This document shows, piece by piece, positions 932 through 2,564 of a stretch of DNA of 64,000 nucleotides. The translations under genes were made by a program, and so were the position numbers. The stretch is from Phycisphaerales bacterium. Its GTDB lineage: Bacteria > Planctomycetota > Phycisphaerae > Phycisphaerales > SM1A02. Where the stretch lies: positions 1 to 64,000 of the forward strand of contig JAQWTL010000035.1 in the NCBI GenBank assembly GCA_029242715.1, given 5' to 3'. Each line of letters starts with the position of its first letter. The stretch's first letter is position 1. Under the pieces are notes generated by a model. It was not told where the DNA came from and made no database searches. It saw nothing but the letters and a program-made list of their open reading frames with translations.

Positions 932-940
932 TGGTATAAT
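932..940 (+). promoter_or_regulatory. Extended -10 promoter of the 1141-2564 cassette
   Basis: A perfect TATAAT at 935-940 is preceded by TGG (932-934), an extended -10 element that can work without a good -35. Transcription would begin near 947, about 190 nt before the first gene of the cassette. Confidence 0.6.
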
Positions 941-946
941 TTTGGT

Positions 947-1140
947 GCATCAAGAGCAGGGCTGACGCCCTCGCCAACCTGCCTGCCCGGGCAAGGTGGC
1001 CACCGGAAGCGGTTTCCGGGATGCGGTCCAGGGATTCACTGAATCCCGACAACAAAGCGGGCGTGCCCTGTTTTTGGGGCGATTCGTTTTGACGGGCCGA
1101 GCAGCGTCAGTTCTCCAAGCAGAGATGCAAGGAGAACACA
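947..1140 (+). promoter_or_regulatory. Hairpin-rich 5' leader of the small-gene cassette
   Basis: The 828-1140 gap holds a promoter and then a GC-rich leader with consecutive inverted repeats: AGGGC-tgac-GCCCT (958-971), CCGGAA-gcggt-TTCCGG (1003-1019), GGGATTC-act-GAATCCC (1031-1047), GCCC...GGGC around a T-run (1065-1080), and TGACG...CGTCA further down. Just before the ATG at 1141 is AAGGAG at good spacing. The density of perfect short stems suggests a structured RNA, either a cis-regulatory leader or an independent small RNA. It matches no riboswitch class that I recognise. The left part of the gap (828-931) shows nothing clear. Confidence 0.5.
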
Positions 1141-1458
1141 ATGACTGGACGACAGGTATCCGTTGAACGTGATGTGCTGGGAGGCGCCGCTGGCGTACTC
1201 GAGGCCATCGGAGGCAACGATCTGGCACTGGCCCTGGGACGGGCTGGGCACGGACATCCATATTCACCACTGGCCAAGGAACTGGTTGTCGCTGCGCTGC
1301 GACGACTACGGTCTGAAAGTGGTGGGGAATGGGGTCAACAACAGGAAATCGCAGGACGTATCCGCGCTGAACTGGCGGCCAGGCCGACGGTTCACGTGGA
1401 TGTCGGTGGCGGGGCGGCTCTGTTGATGGAAATTTCACCTGGCAGGAGCGTGTTGTGA
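1141..1458 (+). CDS. Small protein of unknown function, first gene of cassette
   Basis: The product has 105 residues, mostly helical in appearance (GGAAGVLEAIGGNDLALALG; AKELVVAALRRLRSE), then a Gly-rich end. There is no signal peptide or membrane segment. The start is well supported: AAGGAG lies about 6 nt before ATG 1141. Its stop (TGA 1456-1458) overlaps the start of the next gene, so the two are translationally coupled. I do not recognise a family. Codon use looks like real coding sequence, with many GC-ending codons. Confidence 0.65.
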   Translation: MTGRQVSVERDVLGGAAGVLEAIGGNDLALALGRAGHGHPYSPLAKELVVAALRRLRSESGGEWGQQQEIAGRIRAELAARPTVHVDVGGGAALLMEISPGRSVL

Positions 1459-2105
1459 TGATGAAACCAAGTTACATCCCAAAAAACGAATACTACGAAC
1501 CGAAATTTGCGCGTGGCAACAACGGCGAATTGATGCGGATGGATTATGACGGGTACGGAGTCTGGACCATTTCACAGCGTGATGAGACCTACATCTCAGG
1601 CTGGAAGCATGTGGTCCGCGGAGATCCGACGGAGCTGGCCTATTGGGCACGAAAGATGCGAGAGAAACGCAAAGGCAAGATTCCGAAGCAGTTCGGTATC
1701 CGGATCGCCGGCCGTCTTGATCATCAGGTTCGATCGATCCGTCCCGAGCTGCAGTTGATGGCTCATGGCAGCACGATCTTCACCTTCCCGGACAAGCGGG
1801 AGTTTCCCAGTCGTTGTCTCGTATGGGCCGAGGCGGACTACATGGCCGGTATCACCGTCTGGGTCACCCACAATGTCCAGATGGGCGGTCAACATGTGGA
1901 GACTCTGGCTCGAGGTCTGTGGAGCGTGAAGGAGATCATGAACGCTCCCAAGAGTCTGACGGCCAGGCTGCGGAAAACCCATCTGCAAATGGAAGACCGC
2001 ATGGCCATGTGTCCCCGGAACTACATTGTTTCATTAGTCAACCTGGTCACCACGACCCGTGGATACAACCGGCAAGGATCCAGAAAGTATCTCATTGTGC
2101 GTTGA
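1458..2105 (+). CDS. Unknown cytoplasmic protein, second gene of cassette
   Basis: This protein of about 215 residues is rich in Trp, Tyr, Arg and Lys (for example WTISQRDETYISGWKHVVRG and YWARKMREKRKG). It has no signal peptide or obvious membrane helix and is net basic, which could suit nucleic-acid binding (inference only). The start is the ATG at 1458, overlapping the previous stop, with GGAG about 10 nt upstream; a GTG at 1455 would also work. I find no catalytic signature and no family match. Confidence 0.65.
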   Translation: MMKPSYIPKNEYYEPKFARGNNGELMRMDYDGYGVWTISQRDETYISGWKHVVRGDPTELAYWARKMREKRKGKIPKQFGIRIAGRLDHQVRSIRPELQLMAHGSTIFTFPDKREFPSRCLVWAEADYMAGITVWVTHNVQMGGQHVETLARGLWSVKEIMNAPKSLTARLRKTHLQMEDRMAMCPRNYIVSLVNLVTTTRGYNRQGSRKYLIVR

Positions 2106-2171
2106 TGTCTCGAAGATTGCCTCAAACCAACTTCTTTGAGAACAGCAATGACATCAGATAAGGAATTGCCT

Positions 2172-2564
2172 ATGAGTGAACACGAAGCAGTACTAGCAGC
2201 CGTCATCCGCGTCAGCGGTAGGCTGGAATCGATTGAAATCAGAGACCATCGGGACATGGATGGCGCGGTCGGGGGTTACCTCGACCGCGTCGACCCGGTG
2301 GAACTGTACCTGGCAGATCCGCTGTCACCGCACGAGGGTGCCTTTGAGGTCTGGATCAATGAGGCGGGCATGCGGGATGAGCTCCCGCTGAACCTGCCGG
2401 TCTCCTTATCCATGGGTCTGCTGGTCCATGGTGATGTCCTGGTGACCGGGGTCCATGACGAACAGGACAGGCTCACAGGCCTGCCCACCGTGGTGTGGCA
2501 TGAGCTGCCGAGGATGCTGCGAAGTATCAAGCTGGAGAAGGAGAGGGCGTATGGGGGGTCATGA
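2172..2564 (+). CDS. DUF3846-like protein, third gene of cassette
   Basis: The product has 130 residues when started at ATG 2172, which has AAGGA about 8 nt upstream; ATG 2148 and a TTG at 2136 are in frame but poorer. The pattern GGYLDRVDP... NEAGMRDELPLNLP... VHGDVLVTGVHDEQDRLTGLP resembles DUF3846, a small family common in phages and plasmids (GGYIE..., NEEG...LP.N, then a G.. loop). The match is from memory and moderate. If right, it links this cassette to mobile-element gene pools. It is acidic overall and has no signal peptide. Confidence 0.55.
   Translation: MSEHEAVLAAVIRVSGRLESIEIRDHRDMDGAVGGYLDRVDPVELYLADPLSPHEGAFEVWINEAGMRDELPLNLPVSLSMGLLVHGDVLVTGVHDEQDRLTGLPTVVWHELPRMLRSIKLEKERAYGGS

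Follow-up and report, generated by a model that had tools for sequence, protein, structure and literature searches.

The window, i.e. the whole stretch of 64,000 nucleotides that was analysed, carries near its left end a promoter, a structured leader and three small genes, here called g1, g2 and g3. The features of this locus are as follows.

932-940, + strand: extended -10 promoter TGG-TATAAT, recognised by its sequence and its positional recurrence at related loci
942-1066, + strand: SAM-I/IV aptamer, assigned by RF01725 (62.2 bits) and by helix changes across loci
947-951/1020-1024, + strand: P1, from the aptamer element positions
958-971, + strand: P2, from the aptamer element positions
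958-968, + strand: candidate anti-sequestor strand AGGGCUGACGC, i.e. the 5' arm and loop of P2, able to form an 11-bp helix with 1104-1114
973-1000, + strand: P3, from the aptamer element positions
985-989, + strand: P3 loop GCCCG, 5' half of the pseudoknot with partner CGGGC at 1058-1062, read by eye
1003-1019, + strand: P4, from the aptamer element positions
1026-1050, + strand: P5, from the aptamer element positions
1057-1062, + strand: 3' strand of the pseudoknot, from the aptamer element positions
1104-1114, + strand: candidate anti-sequestor target GCGUCAGUUCU, overlapping the 5' flank and arm of the Shine-Dalgarno hairpin
1110-1137, + strand: hairpin GUUCUCC-AA-GCAGAGAUGC-AA-GGAGAAC, present in the minimum free energy (MFE) fold, with a compensatory change in NAT149 and equivalents elsewhere
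1141-1458, + strand: g1, 105 aa, orphan; its family is found only directly behind the leader
1458-2105, + strand: g2, 215 aa, orphan family; its ATG at 1458 overlaps the g1 stop codon (TGATG)
2172-2564, + strand: g3, 130 aa, DUF3846 (PF12957), 36.4 bits against a Pfam gathering cut-off of 27.5

Judged by sequence and predicted structure, the leader belongs to a known class, i.e. it is the aptamer of a SAM-I/IV riboswitch. RF01725 matches positions 942-1066 on the + strand with 62.2 bits (gathering threshold 41.1; E-value 7e-8 for the whole window), and the aptamer is present as a single copy in the genome of the Phycisphaerales bacterium. The leader contains the P1-P3 helices together with the AAGAG / CAACC / AAGGUG / GAUGYGG core of RF01725 as well as the pseudoknot between the P3 loop and a strand 3' of P1; in the covariance-model alignment the conserved core is intact throughout (CAUCAAGAG, CAACC, AAGGUG and GAUGCGG), and P5 is extended. 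The pseudoknot pair GCCCG/CGGGC was read by eye; the stem rule of the parser swallowed the P3 loop at this place. Over about 130 loci the P3 loop and the pseudoknot strand co-vary (own versus mismatched partners, p=1e-6, all p-values of the helix, pseudoknot and duplex tests being optimistic because the loci share ancestry), e.g. as UACCCAA/UUGGGUG, UCCCU/AGGGA and GAUCCG/CGGAUC, and the outer pairs of P3 vary as pairs, too (G-C and A-U; C-G and G-C). The region 940-1140 folds with -92.9 kcal/mol (z = -4.3; 0 of 200 shuffled sequences were equally stable), with perfect or near-perfect stems at 958-971 (P2), 1003-1019 (P4), 1031-1047 (P5) and 1110-1137 (Shine-Dalgarno hairpin). We infer that this copy of the aptamer binds SAM.

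An extended -10 promoter and a structured leader with perfect short hairpins had already been pointed out in a preliminary description of the locus, and both are borne out, as is the covariation for which it had proposed to check the leader stems. Its suggestion that the cassette has its own regulatory RNA is correct as regards regulation, but the RNA is a SAM-I/IV riboswitch and not an unknown element; the RF01725 match led us to abandon the idea that the leader is a novel non-coding RNA. The promoter at 932-940 has no consensus -35 element. A -10 box matching in at least 5/6 positions precedes the aptamer by 6-10 nt at 13 of 19 Phycisphaerales loci, as compared to 0.9% of random positions. 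As the box recurs at a fixed spot before the aptamer, transcription is expected to start at the first helix of the aptamer, i.e. the start should be located at about 946-947, the first aptamer base.

The Shine-Dalgarno sequence of g1 (AAGGAG, 1129-1134; AUG at 1141) is buried in the hairpin 1110-1137, and in the relative NAT149 a U-A pair of this hairpin is replaced by C-G (GUCCUCC/GGAGGAC), a compensatory change. Positions 958-968 are complementary to 1104-1114 over 11 bp. Matching helices with compensatory changes can be found in bacteria and viral contigs (L209, L280, L299, L166, L177 and L050), the pairs being AGAACUGACGU/GCGUCAGUUCU in genome G278 (L209), GGGCUGACG/CGUCAGCCC and GGGUCGACGC/GCGUCGACCC in the viral contigs L280 and L299, respectively, and GGGGCGACGC/GCGUCGUUCC at L166, ahead of a metA-like gene. 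The pairing was tested in two versions, with gapped duplex energies and then with ungapped helices instead. The best ungapped helix between P2 and the anti-Shine-Dalgarno region scores 18.7 for true and 17.1 for mismatched partners (p=1.3e-5), a modest effect over all loci, and the gapped version gives a weaker result (p=0.003); several loci of the family, e.g. L198 and L206, have no good anti-sequestor helix. Ligand-free energies are -90.1 kcal/mol with the aptamer formed and -85.2 kcal/mol for the anti-sequestor fold, as compared to -92.9 kcal/mol for a third fold, the MFE, in which the 5' strand of P2 pairs with 1065-1077 and the Shine-Dalgarno hairpin is closed. As the MFE favours the closed hairpin, it is the comparison of loci that speaks for the open state, which would have to arise during co-transcriptional folding. 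Nevertheless, the P2/anti-Shine-Dalgarno pairing is found again, with compensating substitutions, in bacteria as well as in viral contigs, which suggests that the leader is a SAM-OFF translational switch. From these comparisons we infer both the OFF direction and induction at low SAM; the regulatory reading is well supported, the direction of the switch fairly.

The three small genes are real. Searches of Pfam, PHROGs and PADLOC with g1 and g2 returned no match, and NCBIfam gave nothing of note, in line with the earlier statement that only the third gene resembles anything known; thus, none of the three is recognisable as a methionine or SAM gene, although an unrecognised sulfur function is possible. 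g3 is a DUF3846 protein above the curated Pfam cut-off and matches a PHROG profile weakly (28 bits). A mobile module had been suggested because DUF3846 is typical of phages and plasmids, but neither g2 nor g3 has a tblastn match in phage and plasmid records, and scans of viral contigs with g1, g2 and g3 returned none. Likewise, PADLOC-DB profiles match neither g1-g3 nor the cargo genes of the relative G384, the divergent neighbour gene being the only match.

Both orphan families are linked to the riboswitch. The g1 profile has six matches in 5 of the 181 genomes of this Phycisphaerae family, all six behind a SAM-I/IV leader, and all eight strong matches of the g2 profile in these 181 genomes lie just downstream of a SAM-I/IV aptamer, the profile having been built partly from proteins behind aptamers so that the independent tests are the matches in G272 and G282. 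This linkage of the g2 family extends across five genera, and its members behind aptamers begin YEPxFA...RLDYxG...W. Outside the family, a scan of 400 genomes of the order gave no clear g2 match, weak ones in G287, G319 and G323, and a partial one in G277, which is likewise located behind an aptamer. A BLAST search with g2 in 248 genomes of the class returned the window itself as sole match, i.e. the relatives surfaced by following the riboswitch. For the AlphaFold model of g2 (pLDDT 78, pTM 0.71), Foldseek returned nothing at E<=0.001 from the PDB or from viral models; nucleic-acid binding is not claimed, as the best VIA-align Z scores, 6.0 (PA1076) and 5.5 (PURA repeat), are below a meaningful level. 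The structure model of g1 is too poor for use (pLDDT 57).

In relatives of the same genus the flanks are constant, with a lipoprotein/GYF-DUF4190-like gene and a dockerin gene, and the insert between them is variable, so that the locus does stand out from its surroundings as had been remarked. The leader and g1 are kept and the genes behind them differ: g1 is fixed in the genus, g2 is replaced and g3 is usually the last gene. Hence, the expectation that the three genes stay together does not hold, as there is no fixed trio. In G384, 3.1 kb of different genes separate g1 from DUF3846, the latter with 78% DNA identity and at the same place, G382 has two other genes and lacks DUF3846, and in G381 DUF3846 (89% DNA identity) is found on a separate contig beside the dockerin gene. 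Two contigs of G381 share a left flank that is 99% identical over 5.9 kb and an identical leader. Between G381a and G381b the upstream region and the leader are 100% identical and g1 69%, whereas between G381a and G382 the upstream region is 56%, the leader 92% and g1 99% identical. An allele replacement close to the leader/g1 junction, or right at it, would account for this pattern, which might in part be an assembly artefact or a strain mixture, as the G381 and G382 bins have about 9% contamination and their contigs end inside the cassette. The mobile accessory module proposed earlier is therefore retained in so far as the cassette varies between close relatives, its mobility being deduced from allele replacement rather than from genes of a mobile element. 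Next to the cassette, neither an integrase nor a transposase nor any structural phage gene could be recognised. Among the relatives no empty site turned up, G380 breaking at the locus and G383 having no clear orthologous flank.

The aptamer is widespread in the family, with RF01725 detecting SAM-I/IV in 36 of the 181 genomes and a DNA search with the leader/aptamer in about 20. The cargo consists of orphans of 204, 332 and 384 aa in G384, 81 and 205 aa in G382, 534 aa in G231 and 350 aa in a genus that happens to be labelled g2 (not the gene g2); the GC-rich loci L229, L233 and L237, where the choice of ORF is uncertain, were left out of this judgement. Outside the family SAM-I/IV is frequently located ahead of methionine genes, e.g. 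metA, and among 29 sampled downstream ORFs homoserine O-succinyltransferase accounts for 10 and beta-eliminating lyase for 3. A known riboswitch class thus has an unusual, lineage-specific regulon in this family, namely hypervariable orphan cassettes.

Several further loci were noted on the way. In genus g189 (L234-L236, L245, L247) a conserved protein of 124-128 aa (SVGIAPxDL..GDYVAIV) is encoded behind SAM-I/IV and g2-family genes; L234-L236 additionally encode VWA-domain proteins. In the genus labelled g2, SAM-I/IV stands in tandem with SAM-I/IV or SAM-IV before further orphans (L006:1501-1865, L349:892-1224), and at L226 (G390:C48:4679-4711) the intact aptamer has an apparent decayed copy of P3 about 1.3 kb upstream. 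At L231:1-927 (G290) a MerR-like HTH domain is fused to a class-V aminotransferase of the cysteine-desulfurase type, 2.7 kb behind SAM-I/IV. A 73.7-bit SAM-I/IV aptamer at L003/L309 (G235 contig C110, minus strand) precedes a protein of 218 aa, which has a sub-threshold match to PF23780, the phage-type SAM lyase (19.3 bits, cut-off 28). Nine viral contigs (L050, L260, L267, L277, L285, L287, L291, L292 and L299) carry SAM-I/IV above gathering, several before small genes, the downstream proteins of L050 and L260 being similar and 120-130 aa long; of the 50 matches of a first viral pattern scan, L050 was the only one that did not look like a match to a coding sequence when inspected. The viral contig IMGVR_UViG_3300043434_001186 (L280:541-793) has a SAM-I/IV aptamer and, in tandem behind it, one of SAM-V (42.4 bits; gathering 41); shortly downstream of the pair lies an ORF of 434 aa that looks like an S-adenosylmethionine synthetase.

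The class of the riboswitch, the linkage of cargo and riboswitch, the variability, the allele exchange (with the assembly caveat given above) and the conserved complementary strands are computed results. We consider it probable that the locus as a whole is a SAM-I/IV translational OFF-switch in front of a hypervariable, exchanged orphan cassette. In such a scheme the promoter would start an mRNA with the riboswitch as its 5' end. Binding of SAM would let P1-P3 and the pseudoknot form, and the hairpin 1110-1137 would hide the Shine-Dalgarno sequence of g1, leaving g1 untranslated and g2 likewise, probably coupled through TGATG. When SAM is low, the 5' strand and loop of P2 would pair with GCGUCAGUUCU, the hairpin would open and the operon would be made. 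The regulated cassette would have g1 first, variable orphans in the middle (g2 here) and usually DUF3846 last, and may be swapped among related marine planctomycetes through recombination near the leader, always at a single chromosomal site. As to the role of the cargo, we can only guess at accessory functions that are useful during SAM or methionine shortage.

The cassette may also serve ordinary sulfur homeostasis, the orphans being divergent methionine, SAM or sulfur genes (e.g. for salvage, uptake or sparing) under the usual feedback by SAM, and we regard this as a real, if not the favoured, possibility. It would agree with the methionine genes often found behind SAM-I/IV elsewhere, i.e. 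the homoserine O-succinyltransferases and beta-eliminating lyases counted above, and with Pelagibacter, where sulfur limitation induces SAM-riboswitch genes located in a hypervariable region and, with them, some of the small orphans nearby (PMC5069961). However, none of the tested first-gene cargo proteins in the Phycisphaerae family matched a sulfur-metabolism family, a cargo that differs wholly between close relatives is unusual for core metabolism, and the neighbours of the cassette include nuclease genes.

As regards the level of regulation, control might be transcriptional, with the hairpin 1064-1081 and its U-run terminating transcription in one state. There is indeed a terminator-like stem-loop followed by U at 1064-1081, and at L225, L230 and L237 UUUUU directly follows the stem behind the pseudoknot. 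Yet the U-run at 1064-1081 sits inside the loop of the best hairpin of the window, the region has three terminator-like sites where 1.2 are expected by chance, and the elements that recur across loci are the Shine-Dalgarno hairpin and its partner, so that we deem this alternative unlikely and adhere to the translational switch.

It is rather improbable that the locus is a SAM-depletion alarm, i.e. a defence locus that is translated when SAM falls, for example upon the action of a phage SAM lyase. Phages are known to counter host defence with SAM-degrading enzymes, which deplete SAM to the point of inducing the met regulon (PMC7877911), the site is hypervariable with swapped orphan genes, a divergently oriented GmrSD-type restriction gene with a PADLOC match adjoins the leader in G384, and an HNH nuclease follows g2 in G310. 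On the other hand, no tested cargo protein matches PADLOC, and the nuclease neighbours are few and might not exceed a background rate. A wider speculation, to which we give little credence, is that in marine planctomycetes SAM-I/IV is the fixed front end of a hypervariable locus whose orphans may be derepressed when SAM collapses, e.g. as an anti-phage alarm; if true, this alarm would be directed at phages that evade methylation-based defence by destroying SAM. Finally, a variant aptamer that senses another metabolite, and hence has non-methionine cargo, is very improbable, since despite the non-canonical regulon throughout the family and the extended P5 of the leader all core motifs of RF01725 are kept and the same core is found ahead of metA in other phyla.

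With the SAM-OFF translational switch as the preferred reading, a sensor with a well-understood ligand predicts when otherwise uninterpretable orphan genes are expressed and thus offers an experimental handle on an unexplored gene set that is probably switched on when SAM runs low. If confirmed, this would add a swapped accessory locus to the methionine genes as a target of SAM riboswitches, and low SAM as a signal of stress or infection would become testable. Moreover, reading structured leaders can define gene families, such as g1 and g2, that protein profile searches miss.

SAM-I/IV variants (RF01725, 'SAM-I-IV-variant'), which usually come from metagenome sequences (Weinberg et al. 2010, PMC2864571), resemble the leader in aptamer sequence and structure, conserved core and pseudoknot, but their targets elsewhere are often methionine genes, whereas those of the leader are the orphan genes of a hypervariable cassette. 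In a literature search that was thin in subscription journals, no publication came up that connects SAM-I/IV with DUF3846 or with cassettes. Integrons and cassette arrays behind a fixed promoter also combine a fixed leader with variable genes behind it; this is an analogy only, and unlike in integrons no integrase was recognised at the cassette. The nearest precedent, by analogy, is Ca. Pelagibacter ubique, which has its SAM-riboswitch genes within a hypervariable region; they respond to sulfur limitation, and so do two small orphans (PMC5069961). It differs in riboswitch class and phylum, its regulated genes are mainly methionine enzymes and there is no cassette behind a shared leader; alike are the SAM riboswitches, there the translation-blocking SAM-V, in a strain-variable region, with small orphans among the sulfur-stress genes.
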